Source of the DNA: Parabacteroides massiliensis
GTDB lineage: Bacteria; Bacteroidota; Bacteroidia; Bacteroidales; Tannerellaceae
Direction: 5' to 3'
NCBI RefSeq assembly: GCF_900155425.1
Contig: NZ_LT700190.1
Location: 789,386-853,385 of the forward strand
DNA: 64,000 nucleotides
Each line of letters opens with the position of its first letter. Positions within the stretch are counted from its first letter, which is position 1. Shown piece by piece: positions 16,743 through 36,205 of this stretch. The notes beneath the pieces are model-generated. The model searched no databases, had not been told where the DNA came from, and saw nothing but the letters and a program-made list of their open reading frames with translations. The position numbers were made by a program, and so were the translations under genes.

Positions 16743-17126
16743 ATGTACACAAATGATGCTCGAATCGTAATGACACTGGATGCCGGAGGAACCAACTTTG
16801 TTTTCTCTGCAATCCAAGGCGGTCTGGAAATAGTCGATCCGGTAGTCCTTCCGGCTTGTGCGGATTGTTTAGAGAATGCACAGACGGGAATGATGGACGG
16901 TACTCGTTTCGGGCGTTTACAAAAGAAAGTATATGATTTGGATGATGAGATTAGTTTCTTTGCTTTTGCCAGGGGAGAAGCAGTAGAGGTTTCTGTCCCG
17001 GGGACGAATCGTAAGGTTGGATATGATCCTTGTAAACGGACCGGAGTGATACTCAGCAGGCAGGGAGCCAATCGTTCGATTGCAATGGGTGCTTATGTTT
17101 TTGCGTTAAACCATCTATCAGAATGA
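16743..17126 (+). pseudogene. ROK family sugar kinase with large internal deletion
   Basis: A 127-residue frame that joins the two ends of a ROK kinase. Residues about 8-45 are the N-terminal ATP-binding start (IVMTLDAGGTNFVFSAIQGG). Residues about 54-127 match the extreme C-terminus of such kinases (KVYDLDDEISFF, VPGTNRKVGYDP, GANRSIAMGAYVFAL). The middle of the fold, with the sugar site, catalytic Asp and zinc motif, is missing; intact members are about three times longer. The join is in frame, near ENAQTGMMDGTRFG. It would have been the mannose or fructose kinase of this locus. A residual function is unlikely. The stop overlaps the GH92 start (ATGA). Confidence 0.8.
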
Positions 17127-19498
17127 ATATGAGACAAAAGTATGTTATAGAATCTATGTGGTTCCTGATGTTTGCGTGTGTTTTCTTCATCTCCTGTGTG
17201 AGAGAAGGCGAGACGGTTCGGCAAGAGGAGCTTTGCCAATATGTGGAGCCTCGGATCGGTACGGCACATTGCCGTTGGTTTCATTTTACACCGGGAGCGA
17301 TGCCTTTCGGAATGGCCAAGCCGGCTCCTTCAACCAACGGGCATATCGGGAATAAATCCGGTTGGGAGGCTACGGGGTATGATTATCGGGATCAATCCAT
17401 CGAGGGTTTTCCTTGTTTGCATGAGTTCCAGATCGGGGGAATTGTACTGATGCCTGCAAAAGGTTTGTTGAAAACAGTGCCCGGAGCGGTAGACGACTCG
17501 ACAGGCAGAGGGTATCGTTCCCGTTTTGACCGTGCGGATGAGGTCGCTACTGCCGGCTATTATTCCGTTTTCTTAAAAGATCATTCGATTCGTGCGGAAC
17601 TGACAGCCACTCCTCGTGTCGCTATTCAGCGTTATACGTTTCCTGCGGGAGAGGATAGCCGTATCTTGTTTGACATAGGAAATCGTCAAGGAGAGAGTGG
17701 AGCCGTACGAGATGCGGAAATAGTCCTTACGGAAGACGGGCGTATCGAAGGTTGGGTGATTACCGAACCTGAATATGTAAGGAAATACCAGTCCGGAGCA
17801 TCAGTCCCTTTGTTTTTCTCTGCCGTGTTGGATAAGGAGCCTGTTGGATATGGCGCTTTCAACGGAGAGGATATCCGTCCGGATGGACGGAAAGCGACAG
17901 GGGTGGGAGCCGGGCTTTATTTGACATTTCATACCCAAGACCAAGAGCAGGTTACAGCAAAAGTCGGCCTTTCCTATACATCTGTTGAGAATGCCCGGGT
18001 GAATAGGGAAACAGAGGCCGCTTCCCTTACATTTGATGAGGCAAGGGAGATTTCCCGTCAAACATGGGAAAGTTATTTGGGACGTATCCGGATAGAGACT
18101 CCGGAACGGGAGGATAAAGTGAAATTCTATACCGGTTTGTATCACGCATTATTAGGCCGCGGGTTGGCAAGCGATGTAAATGGCTCTTATCCGAGAAATG
18201 ATGGTTCTGTAGGCCAAATACCTTTGAAAGACGGGAAACCGATACATAACTTGTATAATACCGATGCCGCCTGGGGTGCGCAATGGAATCTGACACAGGT
18301 TTGGGCTTTGGCTTATCCGGAGTATTATTCGGATTATATAAGTAGCCATTTGTTGGTGTATAAAGATGCCGGTTGGCTGGCGGATGGGATTGCCAATAGC
18401 CGTTACGTCTCCGGTGTCGGTACGAATTTGTTAAGTACGGTTATTGCCGGCGCTTATCAGTGTGGCATCCGGGATTTTGATGTGAATGTGGCTTATGAGG
18501 CTTGTTTGAAGAATGAGCTGGATGGAGAGAACCGCCCGTTAGGTGCAGGAAAGGTTGACACCCGTTATTTCGTGGAATATGGTTATGTGCCTCATTTGGA
18601 TAAAGGAGACGGGCCGGATGAGGCTTTTATGTTCTCAGCTTCCCATACATTGGAATATTCTTATAGTGCATGGGCTGTGGCCCAATGGGCGAAACAACTC
18701 GGCAAGATGGATGATTACAATCGTTTGATGTATCTGTCGAAAGGATGGGAACGGATCTATGATCCATCCTGTAATTTTGTCCGTCCTAAAAAGAAGAATG
18801 GCACGTTTATCGAAGATTTCAACCCGATGCAGGTATGGCGCGGGTTTCAGGAAGGTAATGCTTGGCAATATACTTTTTATGTGCCGCATGATGCGAAAGG
18901 ATTGGTTGCCAAAGTCGGTGCGAACGTATTTAACCATCGGTTGGACAGTATCTTTACGGTGTCTCGTAAGTTGATTTTTAGTGGTGGCACGGAAGTTGGA
19001 GCTTTCGCCGGTTTGCAGACCTTGTATAATCATGGGAACCAACCTTGCTTGCATATCTCTTGGATGTTCAACGAGGCAGGTCGTCCTTCCCTTACGCAAA
19101 AGTGGGTGCGGGCGATCTTGAATGAGTTCTATGGTACGGACGGTATACATGGTTATGGCTACGGGCAGGATGAAGATCAAGGTCAACTTGGGGCTTGGTA
19201 CGTGATGTCTTCCTTGGGATTATTTGATATGAAGGGTTTGACGGATCAAGCGCCTTCTTTTGCTTTGGGTAGTCCTTTGTTCGATAAGATTACGATTCAG
19301 CTAAATAGCTGTTATTATGAGGGAAAGGAATTTGTGATCGAGACTCGTAATAATAGTAAGCAAAATGATTATGTGCAATCGATAGACCTAAATGGAAAAA
19401 ACTTGACAGAGACCCGCCTTCCTTTTTCGGAGATTGTCAAGGGTGGACATTTAGTCTTGGAAATGGGAAACCAACCCAAAGATCGATATGAAAACTAA
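17123..19498 (+). CDS. GH92 alpha-mannosidase lipoprotein
   Basis: A 791-residue glycoside hydrolase of family 92, calcium-dependent exo-alpha-mannosidases of N-glycans and mannans. The N-terminus has a lipoprotein signal with lipobox Cys25 (FFISC), so it is predicted to be membrane-anchored, likely periplasmic or surface. Family motifs: VEPRIGTAHCRWFHFTPGAMP-like start, LYHALLGRG, YNTDAAWGAQWNLTQVW, and the catalytic-base region GQDEDQGQLGAWYVMSSLG with D683, E684 and D685. It appears intact, unlike most of its neighbours. Linkage specificity is not readable. Its start overlaps the ROK remnant and its end overlaps the MFS remnant. Confidence 0.93.
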   Translation: MNMRQKYVIESMWFLMFACVFFISCVREGETVRQEELCQYVEPRIGTAHCRWFHFTPGAMPFGMAKPAPSTNGHIGNKSGWEATGYDYRDQSIEGFPCLHEFQIGGIVLMPAKGLLKTVPGAVDDSTGRGYRSRFDRADEVATAGYYSVFLKDHSIRAELTATPRVAIQRYTFPAGEDSRILFDIGNRQGESGAVRDAEIVLTEDGRIEGWVITEPEYVRKYQSGASVPLFFSAVLDKEPVGYGAFNGEDIRPDGRKATGVGAGLYLTFHTQDQEQVTAKVGLSYTSVENARVNRETEAASLTFDEAREISRQTWESYLGRIRIETPEREDKVKFYTGLYHALLGRGLASDVNGSYPRNDGSVGQIPLKDGKPIHNLYNTDAAWGAQWNLTQVWALAYPEYYSDYISSHLLVYKDAGWLADGIANSRYVSGVGTNLLSTVIAGAYQCGIRDFDVNVAYEACLKNELDGENRPLGAGKVDTRYFVEYGYVPHLDKGDGPDEAFMFSASHTLEYSYSAWAVAQWAKQLGKMDDYNRLMYLSKGWERIYDPSCNFVRPKKKNGTFIEDFNPMQVWRGFQEGNAWQYTFYVPHDAKGLVAKVGANVFNHRLDSIFTVSRKLIFSGGTEVGAFAGLQTLYNHGNQPCLHISWMFNEAGRPSLTQKWVRAILNEFYGTDGIHGYGYGQDEDQGQLGAWYVMSSLGLFDMKGLTDQAPSFALGSPLFDKITIQLNSCYYEGKEFVIETRNNSKQNDYVQSIDLNGKNLTETRLPFSEIVKGGHLVLEMGNQPKDRYEN

Positions 19499-19619
19499 AA
19501 ATACGAATTCGGCTGTATTCCCGATTCTTTTCGGCTTTTTCGTGATGGGATTCGTGGATGTTGTTGTTAATCTGTATGTTATACATAGGACTTATATCAA
19601 TAAAAATACGATAAAATGA
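19488..19619 (+). pseudogene. N-terminal remnant of an MFS sugar transporter
   Basis: A 43-codon frame. The first 26 or so residues, with FPILFGFFVMGFVDVV, match the start of FucP-type MFS sugar transporters of Bacteroidetes. After VDVV the sequence is unrelated and stops at TGA 19617-19619, overlapping the next ATG. About 95 percent of the transporter is missing. It starts inside the end of GH92 (11-bp overlap), showing that the transporter was once the next gene of the operon. Confidence 0.7.
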
Positions 19620-19834
19620 AAAAAAGAACTTGTTTGTCGATCGGATTGGCTTTGTTGATAGGTGTATTGCCGATCCATGCGTCTTCGGGGTTGTCGGATA
19701 TCAAAAGCCGTGTATTGCCGGCGGTTTATAAATCGAAAAACGGACTGACCCAAAAGGTCGAGATCTCAGTGAAACATGAAGGGGAACCTTCTACGGTGAC
19801 GATCCGTTTAGGCGAGCAAAGCCGAAAAGAGTAA
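19616..19834 (+). pseudogene. 5' fragment of GH38-like alpha-mannosidase gene (IS-interrupted)
   Basis: A 72-codon frame starting with a signal peptide (MKKRTCLSIGLALLIGVLPIHA) and reading into ...STVTIRLGEQ before entering the IS at about 19820. The remaining codons are IS sequence and end at TAA 19832-19834. Codons AAG AAA CTG GCG TCG GGA at 21480 onward continue the protein (KKLASGDN) in the same frame if the IS is removed, so the gene was intact before the insertion. The signal peptide stays with this piece, and the catalytic domain with the other. Confidence 0.85.
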
Positions 19835-19875
19835 AGCCAAGCCTTTGTCTTGATTGAAATCAGAGTGGAACACAG

Positions 19876-19908
19876 AACGTTTCCGCCGCCTATGGCGGCA
19901 GAAACGTT
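19876..19908 (+). repeat. 15-bp hairpin in the IS left end
   Basis: AACGTTTCCGCCGCC (19876-19890) pairs with GGCGGCAGAAACGTT (19894-19908) with one mismatch and a TAT loop. It ends 7 bp before the IS promoter. It may protect the transposase from outside transcription, or act in recognition of the left end. Confidence 0.7.
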
Positions 19909-19914
19909 TTTAGT

Positions 19915-19922
19915 TACCTTTG
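19915..19922 (+). promoter_or_regulatory. IS internal promoter -7 element TACCTTTG
   Basis: Exact TAnnTTTG match inside the IS left end. It predicts a transcript starting near 19929 with a leader of about 165 nt before the transposase ATG at 20094. No -33 TTTG is present at the usual distance in this integrated form; in a circular form the joined right end could not easily supply it either, being more than 90 bp away. Confidence 0.55.
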
Positions 19923-19928
19923 CTGTAG

Positions 19929-20093
19929 GCATAAGAAGCAAGCCGTTTTTTTCTTGGGTTTTCAATCCCACAAAAGAGTATGGCTCCTTGTCCTGCGAAT
20001 CGAAGATTGGTCGTCAGAGGCCGTATAGAAGAATGCTCATCGACAGGACATGGCTTATGCCATTTATCCATCAACAAGAGTAACGATATTACC
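19929..20093 (+). ncRNA. Candidate IS110 bridge RNA (transposase leader)
   Basis: In IS110-group elements a structured RNA from the left non-coding end pairs with target and donor DNA and guides the recombinase. This leader is the right size (about 165 nt) and place. It shows paired segments: TGGG/CCCA around 19953-19969, TGTCCTG (19988-19994) with CAGGACA (20044-20050) enclosing a loop of about 50 nt, and ATGGC/GCCAT at 20050-20062. The enclosed loop contains ATAGAAGAA at 20025-20033, identical to 21476-21484 across the right IS/target junction. Role inferred from family knowledge; no folding was computed. Confidence 0.55.
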
Positions 20094-21479
20094 ATGGCAA
20101 AGAAAGCAAAAAAAGTCAAGAGCGCCAAAGGTGCGGAACTTCGGATAGTCAATCCCGATGCGGCTGGGATAGACATCGCGGACGGTATCATGCAGGTCTG
20201 CATCCCTGCTGACCGCTCCAAGGACAACAACCGTGCGTTCGGAGCATATACATCCGACCTGCATGCCATCTCGGCATGGCTTAGGGAATGTGGCATAAAG
20301 ACAGTCGCAATGGAATCCACCGGGGTGTACTGGATACCGCTGTTCTGTCGTCTTCAGGAGGACGGGCTGGATGTCGTATTGACCAACGCAAGGGATGTGA
20401 AGAACATAACGGAGAGGAAAACCGACGAGTCGGATGCCGAATGGCTGATGTTGCTGCACCAGTACGGGTTGCTCAAGGCAAGTTTCCAACCGCACAACGA
20501 CGCCAAACGGATGAGGACACTTACCCGTCATCGTGACACCCTCTCCCGTGAAGCCTCAAGCATGGTCCTGCGTATGCAGAAAGCCATGCAGCAGATGAAT
20601 ATAAAACTTACGCTTGTCCTGTCTGACATCACGGGAAAATCCGGCATACGTATCATCGAGGCCATTCTTGCAGGTGAACGTGACCCCAAGAAACTTGCGG
20701 AATTGGCTGACATCCAGTGCAAAACCCCGAAAGAGGAAATAGCCAAGGCACTTGAGGGCAACTGGGAAGAAGACCTCATGTTTGTCCTCAGACAAAACTA
20801 TGATACTTTCAAACATTATTGTACCCAACTTGGCGAGTGCGATGCAGAACTGGAGAAACTCATGGAAAACTACCGTGCGGAGGTTGCCAAAGTGGAAGAT
20901 ACTTCATATAGCCCGGCAAAAAAACGCCGCGATTATAAAAAGACCAGGCATACCGTGAGCTTCGACGTGGAAAGGAAAGCATACGAAATGTGGGGAGTGA
21001 ACGTTTTTGAGATACCGGGCATAAGCCACCTGACCGCACTTGAACTGATGAGTGAACTGGGGCACGACTTTACCCGGAAGTTCCCGTCTTCCAAACAGTT
21101 CTGCTGTTGGTGCAACATCTCACCGAACACCAAGATATCAGGAGGAAAAAGAATATCAAGCCACGTGCCACACCGTCGGAACAATGTCGGGTTGATTTTT
21201 AGAAGTATCGCTTCTTCGCTCGCCAATGCGAAGAACCAATTGGGGAACTTCTACCGCAGAATACGTTCACGGGCCGGAGGTAAAGCCGCAGTCATTGCCA
21301 CTGCCCACAAGGTAGCCGAGATATTCTTTGCCATGGTTGCAAACCAAACAACTTATAATCCGGAAAGAGTAGGTATAGACGAGAAAGTATTACTCGAAAA
21401 ACGGATTACAAGATACAAACGTGAATTAGAACGAATTACAGGCACACATATAGAAATTGGCAATGCATGTGTTCCATAG
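20094..21479 (+). CDS. IS110-family transposase
   Basis: A 461-residue recombinase when started at ATG 20094 (MAKKAKKVKSAKG); the frame is open to 19980, but that part is the leader RNA. The N-terminal DEDD/RuvC-like domain shows GIDIADG, AMESTGVYW and KTDESDAEWL. A coiled region follows, and the C-terminal Transposase_20 domain has EIPGISHLTALELMSELG and FCCWCNISPNTKISGGKR, which should hold the catalytic Ser. It looks complete, so the element may still be mobile. It inserted in the same orientation as the GH38 gene. Confidence 0.93.
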   Translation: MAKKAKKVKSAKGAELRIVNPDAAGIDIADGIMQVCIPADRSKDNNRAFGAYTSDLHAISAWLRECGIKTVAMESTGVYWIPLFCRLQEDGLDVVLTNARDVKNITERKTDESDAEWLMLLHQYGLLKASFQPHNDAKRMRTLTRHRDTLSREASSMVLRMQKAMQQMNIKLTLVLSDITGKSGIRIIEAILAGERDPKKLAELADIQCKTPKEEIAKALEGNWEEDLMFVLRQNYDTFKHYCTQLGECDAELEKLMENYRAEVAKVEDTSYSPAKKRRDYKKTRHTVSFDVERKAYEMWGVNVFEIPGISHLTALELMSELGHDFTRKFPSSKQFCCWCNISPNTKISGGKRISSHVPHRRNNVGLIFRSIASSLANAKNQLGNFYRRIRSRAGGKAAVIATAHKVAEIFFAMVANQTTYNPERVGIDEKVLLEKRITRYKRELERITGTHIEIGNACVP

Positions 21480-24155
21480 AAGAAACTGGCGTCGGGAGAT
21501 AATGTGTTTTTGATGGAGATACCGGAAGTTTCCGTTACAGGCCAATTACCATTGACGTTGGTCTGTGGAAAAGAGAAAGAGGAAACTACGGTTATTGTAA
21601 AACCTGTTCGCCATTGGCAGATGAATATGGTACAACACACGCATACCGATATCGGTTATACCCGTTCACAAATGGAAATCTTGGCAGAACATTTGCGATA
21701 TATCGATTATGCATTGGATTATTGTGACGCGACGGATCAATATCCAGATTTCGCTAAATTCCGTTGGACTTGCGAAATCGCTTGGGCGGTTAGCGAATAT
21801 TTGAAATGCCGTCCGGCGGAACAGGTCGCCCGCCTGAAACAGCGAGTAAAAGAAGGTCGTATCGAATTAGCTGCGATGTATTTGAATTTTGACGAATTGC
21901 CGGATGAACAAACGCTTGCCGCTTCTCTTTATCCGATCAGGCAATTCCGCGAAAACGGGATGCGTGCCGAGGTCGCAATGCAAGACGACGTGAATGGTAT
22001 CGGCTGGTGTTTCAGTGAGTATTTCGCGGATGCCGGCGTGAAATATGTGAACATGGGGACCCATGGCCACCGGGCTTTGATCTGCTTTGACAAACCTACC
22101 GTATTCTGGTGGGAATCTCCTTCAGGAAAGAAGGTCCTGACCTATCGCGCCGAACATTATAACCAAGGAAATTTCTTTGGTATCCATACGGATGATTTTG
22201 AACGGTTCGAACAACGAGTATTAACGTATCTGGATCAAATGGAAGCAAAAAACTATCCGTATGATATATTGGTAGCTCAACATTCGGGCTATTTTACGGA
22301 TAATGCGCCTCCATCCACGAAAAGTTGTGAGATGTTGCAAAGATGGAATGAGAAATATGAATGGCCAAAATTGCGCACAGCGGTAGCCAGCGAATTCTTT
22401 AAAACGGTCGAGAACCGATATGCGGACCGGATCGAGACGATTCGTGGCGCTTGGCCGGATTGGTGGACAGACGGTTTCGCTTCTGGCGCTCGTGAAGCCG
22501 CCATATCTCGTATAACTCATTCGGATGTCATAGCGAACCAGGTCGGGTTGTCATTCGCTAAAATCTTAGGCGCCCAATTACCGGCGGACATCAATGATCG
22601 TATTTATGACATCAACAAAGCACTTTTATTCTATGATGAGCATACTTTCGGGCATAGTGAGAGCGTGCGTAACGCTTATGGGCTGGAAACTTGGGAACAA
22701 CGTTCCTTGAAACAATCGTATGCGTGGGAGGCCTATCGCCATTCCGGTTTGCTGGGAGAGGTCGCTATGGGCATATTACAATCGTTCATACCCAAAAGCC
22801 ATATTCCGTCTATTGCTGTGTTTAATACGCTAAACTGGAACTATAGTGGTATAGCTAAAGCCTATGTGGATCATCAGATTTTGCCCGATGATCGAGCTTT
22901 TGAGATTGTGGATGTGGCAGGTAATGTAATTCCCGCTCAAGCAGGCGAAAACCGTTCGGATGGGACTTATTGGTATTTCTACGTGAAGGATGTCCCGGCT
23001 TTGGGATATGCGCAGTATTATATAAAGAAAAAGGATATGCCACGCCCGCAAAAGCAGGAGGCTGCGGATTTGAAGGATACACATGTGGAGAATCCTTGGT
23101 ATGCCATCGACTTCAATCCCCGTAAAGGTACGATTCGTAAATTGTATGATAAGGATTTGAACAAGCAATTGGTTACACCGGATGCGGAATGGGAGATGGG
23201 AGAGTTTATTTATGAGATTATCGATAGCCGTCATCCGATGGAGCAATATCGTGCTCCCCAATTTCTCCGTCGTCGTCCGGGAAAGATGCGTTTCGAAAAA
23301 TATGAGAAAGGGGATATTTGGGACACCTATCGGTTCCGGGGAGAAACGGAAGCGGGACGTGAACCGGATAATTTGATGGTGGAATTCCGGGTGTTTAACG
23401 TGACAAAAAAAATAGAAGTGGTTTACCGCTTGCGTAAAAAGGCGGTGACAGATCCGGAAGCGGTCTATATCGCATTCCCGTTCGAAATTGAAGATGGAAA
23501 AATACATTTGGATGTGCCCGGCGGGTCGATTGAAGCGGGCGTAGACCAAATTCCGGGTTCCTCTAACGATTGGTACACGGTGCAGAATTTTGTTACAGCT
23601 CGTAATGCAGAGTCGCAAGTCGTGATGGGGAGTCAAGAAATACCATTAATGCAATTTGGTGCAATCAATACGGGACGCTATAAGGCAGGTGCTGTTCCTC
23701 AGTCTACAAATATGTATTCATGGCCGATGAACAACTACTGGGTAACCAATTTTAATGCAGACCAGATGGGAGAGATGCAATGGAGCTACTTTATCAATTC
23801 TTCAAAAGACAACTCTATTGAGTATGCAACTAAGTTTGCTTGGGAAAACCGGATTCCGTTTTTGACTCGTGTTTTGCCTGGCGGTGATAAAAAAACGGAA
23901 CCTCTTCGACCTGCTTCCATTTTCAAGATCGTACCGGAAAATCTGTTATTGATAAACATGCGGCCGGTGGAAGGAGAGAATGCCGTTATGCTTCAGTTGC
24001 GCGAGATAGGCGGGAAACCTGCTGTTTTCTCTGTAGAATCGGATAAAATCAACTTTGTAAAAACTACGGTTTGTGATGTCGTAGGAGACCCGGTTCCGGG
24101 AAATCCATTAAGTTTCGCTCCGTGGGAAAATAAGTTTATAAAATTATCTTGGTAA
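21480..24155 (+). pseudogene. 3' fragment of GH38-like alpha-mannosidase gene (IS-interrupted)
   Basis: About 891 codons, continuing KKLASGDNVFLMEIPEV after the IS. The GH38-type catalytic domain has the metal-binding HTHTDIGYT, the EIAWAVSEYL and DDVNGIGW segments, and a large beta-sandwich C-terminal half ending FAPWENKFIKLSW. No frameshift is visible in it. Without its signal peptide it would remain cytosolic even if translated from GTG 21504 or a later ATG, so it is probably non-functional in its original exported role. Family assignment to GH38 is by the zinc motif and context with GH92 and phosphomannose isomerase. Confidence 0.85.
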
Positions 24156-36021: not shown

Positions 36022-36095
36022 CTCTTCCTCTTGGACTTGAACCAAGGACCCTCTGATTAACAGTCAGATGCTCTAACCAACTGAGCTAAGGAAGA
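36022..36095 (-). tRNA. tRNA-Asn (GTT), second copy in the operon
   Basis: A 74-nt tRNA on the minus strand. Acceptor stem TCTTCCT/AGGAAGA, D arm GCTCAGTTGGTTAGAGC, anticodon loop CTGTTAA with anticodon GTT, T arm with GGTTCAAGTCC, discriminator G. CCA is not encoded. It is identical to the copy 110 bp away. Confidence 0.95.
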
Positions 36096-36131: not shown

Positions 36132-36205
36132 CTCTTCCTCTTGGACTTGAACCAAGGACCCTCTGATTAACAGTCAGATGCTCTAACCAACTGAGCTAAG
36201 GAAGA
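36132..36205 (-). tRNA. tRNA-Asn (GTT), first copy in the operon
   Basis: Identical in sequence to the other tRNA-Asn; the flanks are also similar (TTTCGC on one side, an AATNTG then T-rich stretch on the other), so this is a recent tandem duplication of a 110-bp unit. The pair ends in one terminator. Confidence 0.95.

Follow-up and report, generated by a model that had tools for sequence, protein, structure and literature searches.

The closest described systems are the bridge RNAs of IS621 and the seekRNAs of IS110- and IS1111-type elements. In the available part of the IS621 structural description, each loop is made up of a stem, a left guide (LTG), a stem loop and a right guide (RTG) (PMC11208158), and the bridge RNA model, as far as the accessible text of its source sets it out, has the left donor guide as one of its components (PMC11208160). 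For the IS1111 group, the accessible portion of the seekRNA paper places the top-strand match 5′ of the bottom-strand match, with the opposite order in ISEc21, gives subterminal inverted repeats of 7–17 bp, and names a few IS1111 relatives with an upstream non-coding region, such as ISMtsp17 (PMC11187229).

Here, we describe an IS110 element of Parabacteroides massiliensis lying in the window, which is the whole stretch of 64,000 nucleotides of DNA that was analysed. The comparisons below indicate that the leader of this element very probably encodes its bridge RNA, with a nine-nucleotide segment of the leader reassigned from target to donor recognition. Like IS621 in the available parts of its descriptions (PMC11208160, PMC11208158; PDB 8wt6), the element has a DEDD/Tnp recombinase and a predicted RNA in the left end in which the predicted target loop precedes the predicted donor loop, the left guide would read the bottom strand plus the core, the core is 2 bp long and the target is not duplicated. 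Within the same parts of those sources (PMC11208160, PMC11208158), the differences are a recombinase of 461 aa as against the 328-residue chain of IS621, a core of AG as against CT, and loops that are predicted to meet in a three-way junction, unlike those of IS621; the right donor guide that belongs to the IS621 model was not found here when the antisense of AG.LE was looked for by eye on both sides of the second loop, in the window element and in the homologs L016 and L024.

The element shares with the ISEc21 seekRNA (IS110 type), as the accessible portion of its source presents it, a non-coding region upstream of tnp and short target matches to both strands, whereas the ISEc21 top-strand match lies 3′ of the bottom-strand match and the candidate order in the window is the opposite (PMC11187229). 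With the IS1111 group (ISEc11, ISPa11 and ISKpn4), described in the same portion, it shares a top-strand match 5′ of the bottom-strand match and a possible 9-bp subterminal inverted repeat (PMC11187229). There, IS1111 non-coding regions are almost always downstream of tnp and transposases have 330–350 aa, whereas the window element has a predicted upstream RNA, an RE of a few bases and a 461 aa protein (PMC11187229); the IS1111 trait of an RNA downstream of tnp combined with a long right end is thus absent from it. Taken alone, the locus adds one more case, of a kind to be expected, to a system published in 2024. It provides a Bacteroidota element in which sequence comparison has yielded the core, a target rule of 11 nt and the two left guides.

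The IS110 element and the nine-nucleotide match in its leader

The element proper occupies 19832–21480 on the plus strand, with a left end (LE) that begins TAAAGCC and a right end (RE) that finishes CCATAGA, both of which were compared in the seven copies of the P. massiliensis genome and in one 98% identical copy from a related genome (G040). The leaders of the seven copies are identical, and over the 1656 nt compared, two base changes occur in one copy, outside the leader. Independent support for the right end comes from L012, a broken relative in Bacteroidaceae bacterium IMSAGC_004 in which the IS sequence halts directly after CCATAGA. The right junction of this degraded copy is without the AG core, which likely reflects a later rearrangement. 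In the window, the region 17123–24155 holds a GH92 gene and then a GH38 gene that is split by the IS after its 5′ part; GH38 matches were obtained in 22 of the 38 genomes searched in the genus, with weak matches and the window's own genome included in that count. A megablast search of plasmids and a single-protein scan of viral contigs each gave no match. Protein searches returned 411 plasmid records, all below 60% identity, and 5 phage records, and an alignment scan of viral contigs returned 3 loci, these being distant relatives.

The recombinase gene (20094–21479, plus strand) encodes 461 aa and has its stop codon inside the RE, with 262 bases of left end before the gene and one element base after the stop codon, that is, a long left end and a short RE. 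The protein matches Pfam DEDD_Tnp_IS110 and Transposase_20 as well as NCBIfam NF033542, ‘IS110 family RNA-guided transposase’ (E 5e-65, above cut-off), and in the PDB its profile aligns to chains of IS621, in two stretches, and of ISCro4. D27, E74, D111 and D114 are invariant among six aligned proteins, and ISPNTKISGG fits P----SG by eye, with the S outside the list of invariant columns. A predicted DEDD RuvC-like domain together with a Transposase_20 domain carrying the SG motif places the recombinase in the IS110 family. A different arrangement was seen at L015 (G171 C429), an IS110 gene that has no leader and starts directly after the end of another transposase-like gene.

The initial annotation had proposed the leader as an IS110 bridge RNA in which a loop containing ATAGAAGAA pairs with the target; the first part is supported, and the second is not, as the segment is mostly IS end and core. 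The 9-mer is present exactly at 20025–20033 and at 21476–21484, where, in agreement with the boundary given by the initial annotation, it takes in the final five IS bases, the core AG and the two target bases that follow, and it occurs at the right junctions of all eight intact copies. In 20,000 dinucleotide shuffles of 19929–20093, scored against 26 nt on the right junction, a match of at least 9 nt to that junction arose in 1.25%, making the earlier estimate of about 1% a fair one; the corresponding figures were 1.7% for the left junction, 2.9% for either and 0.015% for both. A second 9-nt match, overlooked earlier, joins AAAAGAGTA at 19972–19980 to the left junction at 19825–19833. The weaker likeness to the left junction that had been pointed out, TAGGC..AGCAAGCCG, is GH38 sequence missing from the left junctions of the other six copies in the genome, and is taken as a coincidence.

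Agreement between this part of the leader and the right end was measured across 34 IS110 elements, including that of the window, by matching the leader zone at -100 to -45, counted from the start codon, against the sequence surrounding the stop codon. Thirty-one were usable, L035 and L040 being dropped since the script did not find their frame and L041 since its leader is cut by a contig end; second copies (L044 and L080), members of the same IS (L009, L012 and L014), the leaderless L015, L017 with a broken frame, and L066–L068 were never in the set. The summed longest matches reached 219 against a permutation mean of 176.7 (sd 5.8), with 0 of 20,000 permutations as high, and 160 against 129.4 (sd 5.0; 0/20,000) for 23 representatives; the elements share ancestry, so that these permutation counts overstate certainty, and shifts within groups depend less on ancestry. 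Three other leader zones compared with their own RE gave no excess, with 2366, 1476 and 1828 of 5000 permutations as high. In a run on 26 of the 34 elements, the match was at least 7 nt long in 18, 6 nt in five (among them L071, L076 and L077, on the same motif) and 5 nt in three. The guide varies between groups (ATAGAAG/ATGGAAG/ATAAAAG; TCAGAAT/TCAAGAT/TCTCAAT; TTGGTAGC/TTAGTAG), and within groups it shifts on guide and RE alike. No clear donor-guide match was seen in L027, L028, L039, L075, L034, L038, L045 and L072, and the match is doubtful in L026 and L032.

Because the 9-mer segment consists mostly of IS right end and core and changes with its own RE in homologs, AUAGA.AG (20025–20031, plus strand) is assigned as the left donor guide rather than as a target guide, the further AA of the 9-mer being the same as the first two target bases. 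The original proposal, that the loop with ATAGAAGAA is a target-binding loop recognising the GH38 junction, can draw on those final two bases, which equal the target AA common to 8/8 sites; yet IS right end accounts for five of the nine bases and the core for two, the segment follows the RE when that changes in homologs, and the target consensus matches another segment of the leader over 7 nt. We regard this reading as very unlikely.

Target site, core and proposed target guides

C[G/C]AAAAGAG|TAAAGCC stands at the left junction and CCATAGA|AGAA at the right junction of the seven genomic copies and of that in G040, and the flanks of these eight copies are unrelated outside an 11-nt common target, C[G/C]AAAAG.AG.AA. 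The refuting case named by the initial annotation, copies with an identical leader beside unrelated flanks, does not apply under these boundaries, given this common target. In the GH38 gene, the left target half CGAAAAG lies at 19823–19829 (C[G/C]AAAAG at 8/8 sites, with such bases in uninterrupted relatives), the core dinucleotide AG has its left copy at 19830–19831 and its right copy at 21481–21482, where the two junctions overlap when compared with intact relatives, and the right target half AAACTGG lies at 21483–21489 (AA at 8/8 sites), all on the plus strand.

Intact relatives of the gene hit at L003 (80–87% identity across the site) exceed the joined bare flanks by 6 nt and have, for instance, GGCGAAAAGAAAATGAGTGAG in L083 and GGGGAAAAGAGAATGAGCGAG in L085, with more divergent versions elsewhere, among them that of L084, GGAGAAAAGACAATGAGC. 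Across the 270-residue query, from which two codons are missing, the best GH38 relatives within the genus have 272 codons; a GH38 query that retains the AAAAGAG bases gives an ungapped alignment across the site with 12 of 15 GH38 relatives, and in the closest (93%, protein level) the site reads AGCCGTAAAGAGAAACTGG. Since intact relatives are 6 nt longer and carry such bases, AAAAGAG plus AA is read as the target and the dinucleotide AG as the core, and the comparison points to insertion at a short core AG without target duplication. A first boundary model, with core AA, a target near NCGA.AA and near-random insertion, was ruled out by the 6-nt-longer relatives of the L003 target and of GH38. 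A bridge RNA whose target requirement is no more than about CGA.AA (core AA), leaving insertion nearly unselective, would agree with the initial reading of the junctions and with the joined flanks being in frame at the coding sites inspected, but the reading-frame test cannot separate the boundary models, the difference of 6 nt being two codons that keep the frame under either, and in both genes tested, the intact relatives have two additional codons at the site, with AAAAGAG-like bases; we regard this explanation as very unlikely. GCGAA (19994–19998), once considered as a target guide, fell together with the core-AA model.

In the genome, AAAAGAGAA occurs 251 times, compared with 214 for a control in which the pattern is read backwards. 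A search for relatives of the L006 site returned just the genome's own two flanks, and three plasmid records gave a partial match to the L003 site, each spanning roughly half of the query.

With the target read as these 11 nt, the left target guide is AAAAG.AG at 19972–19978 (plus strand), in the 3′ strand of the first hairpin, about 50 nt upstream of the 9-mer and equal to the left target (LT) plus core at 8/8 sites. By itself, a 7-nt match to the target consensus arises in 9.4% of shuffled leaders. L016 and L024, which are homologs of about 50% identity, have TTAAA.AG at the place of the guide and are inserted at TTAAA.AG; compared with the window, three target-guide positions differ (-5, -4 and -1), each matching its own target, with the core of both elements assigned by analogy with the window. 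Their sites, TTTTTTAAA.AG.AAGAAG, lie in related two-frame transposase genes, which we take to be ISAon1-like, and L065, a distant uninterrupted gene of that transposase type (38% over 65 residues), has TTTTTTAAAAGAA at the site. The conserved C[G/C] at -7/-6 of the target has no contiguous match in the leader, which has A and C there, and a second G334 copy, L044, fits its own left flank more poorly with a leader that is the same as that of L029. For the right side of the target, UUUUUUU.CU at 19946–19954 (plus strand), in the 5′ strand of that hairpin, is a plausible candidate guide in the window only: it is antisense to AG.AAAAAAA, the right target (RT) begins AA at 8/8 sites, and the fit is partial in L016 and absent in L024.

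Both left guides extend two bases beyond the core (19972–19980 and 20025–20033), fitting the partner DNA, namely TA of the LE and AA of the right target; L016 and L024 have one such past-core base each.

Predicted fold and expression of the leader

The segment 19923–20093 has a predicted folding energy of -48.8 kcal/mol (z -2.65), with 2 of 200 shuffles as stable. The predicted bridge RNA (19928–20061, plus strand) would be closed by P1, which pairs GGCATAAG at 19928–19935 with CTTATGCC at 20054–20061 and is also formable in L016 and L024, as GACATAAGT/ACTTGTGTT and GACAAGC/GCTTGTC, respectively. The predicted target-binding loop (19942–19984, plus strand) is closed by P2, GCC at 19942–19944 with GGC at 19982–19984, which is GGCC/GGCC in L016 and GTCA/TGAC in L024. 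The predicted donor-binding loop (19989–20050, plus strand) is closed by P3, whose place is taken in L016 and L024 by stems of other sequence, TCGCAGTC/GACTGCGA and GGTCT/AGACC. In the window, P3 is the TGTCCTG/CAGGACA stem described previously, which exists with its 3′ arm at 20044–20050 and its 5′ arm at 19989–19995, one base off the earlier position. The stems were paired by hand, because in a MAFFT alignment of the leaders of five elements the 3′ strands of P1 and P3 were out of place; in this pairing, P1, P2 and P3 allow a three-way junction in all three elements (window, L016 and L024), and the stem changes between them are two-sided.

In the minimum-energy fold, the left target guide is taken up in pairing with the U-run, and the first loop would need opening; the minimum-energy fold of the 98% copy, L009, differs from that of the window. 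Rfam at gathering scores returned only two tRNAs over the whole window and none at the leader, these tRNA genes adjoining each other on the minus strand (36022–36095 and 36132–36205) with equal scores.

The promoter-like TACCTTTG reported by the initial annotation is found at 19915–19922 (plus strand), 5 nt before the first stem, and has the form TAnnTTTG, which we take to be the Bacteroidota-type -7 promoter box. Of 31 elements, 18 have this pattern in the 260 nt preceding the gene, as a raw count with no chance expectation attached. A pattern scan of 19800–20100 called no sigma-70 promoter and no terminator. Directly before the promoter-like box, at 19876–19910, there is a GC-rich hairpin followed by TTTTT, of which L009 and L012 retain altered versions, as judged by eye; it could keep read-through transcription out of the leader, although the terminator scan made no call there.

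In the favored reading, the RNA would be transcribed from near 19928, downstream of the TACCTTTG box, fold as a three-way junction with two loops and be bound by the DEDD/serine recombinase, and pairing in cells would let the two join the RE.AG.LE junction of a presumed circle to genomic C[G/C]AAAAG.AG.AA, without target duplication. It is extremely unlikely that the match is instead a coincidence, with the leader being simply a 5′ untranslated region or coding for an N-terminal extension of the transposase. The 1.25% of shuffles with a right-junction 9-mer and a frame open back to an ATG at 19980, in L009 too, could be adduced for this, whereas guide and RE agree over 31 elements, the stems are kept with two-sided changes, L012 has another frame, and in-frame stops, absent from the L009 leader, are present in the leaders of L016 and L024 and therefore argue against the leader being coding.

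Guide order among related elements

Guide order and subterminal repeats were compared in 20 elements picked for having a donor-guide match. In 19 of the 20, the predicted fold is more stable for the 40 nt on the 5′ side of the donor guide than for the 40 nt on its 3′ side (mean -8.3 vs -2.5 kcal/mol), the sole exception being the window element (-8.8 vs -9.9), in which the 3′ side includes part of P3. In 18 of the 20 elements, no more than 6 nt separate the guide from the end of a stem-loop on its 5′ side, and in the window, the predicted stem-loop GGUC...GGCC (20009–20022, plus strand) lies directly 5′ of the guide; 16 of the 20 have CC(C)G directly before the donor guide, and 19 have TGG upstream of it. 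The target guide of the window likewise comes after a hairpin (19955–19970, predicted fold). The IS621 order of left guide, stem loop and right guide was not observed in the 20-element comparison, and left guides seem to lie 3′ of their stem-loop, an IS1111-like order in an upstream RNA.

Candidate subterminal inverted repeats of the window element are TGGAACACA at 19866–19874 (plus strand) and its complement TGTGTTCCA at 21468–21476 (minus strand). Over the 20 elements, subterminal inverted repeats summed to 147 vs 115 expected (0/20,000), and a direct-repeat control was also above chance (129 vs 110, 0/5000).

We suggest, as a conjecture that we would sooner doubt than assert, that Bacteroidota IS110 elements with recombinases of about 450 aa form a mixed branch, with the upstream RNA of IS110, two loops that each follow the IS1111 order from right guide through stem-loop to left guide, 6–10 bp subterminal inverted repeats, and left guides that continue for 1–2 nt beyond the core into the partner DNA, which is the LE for the target guide and the RT for the donor guide, possibly a mirror image of the handshake bases of IS621. 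No prior mention of a reversed guide order in other long-recombinase IS110 elements was found among the titles and abstract openings listed from an open-access library. If true, the reversed order bears on the kinship of IS110 and IS1111 guide RNAs and widens the range of bridge recombinase architectures.

Two further groups of loci were noticed. L024 (C3:170471–171811 of the window's own genome) and L016 belong to a second IS110 type, about 50% related, and occupy the same kind of site in related transposase genes, where one mobile element would appear to target another. The left flanks of one homolog group, L031, L032, L033, L047, L074, L076 and L077, contain, by eye, CGTT[A/G] boxes, for example CGTTGGGC or CGTTAGGC, which we take to resemble integron attC sites, and these IS110 elements may target attC.
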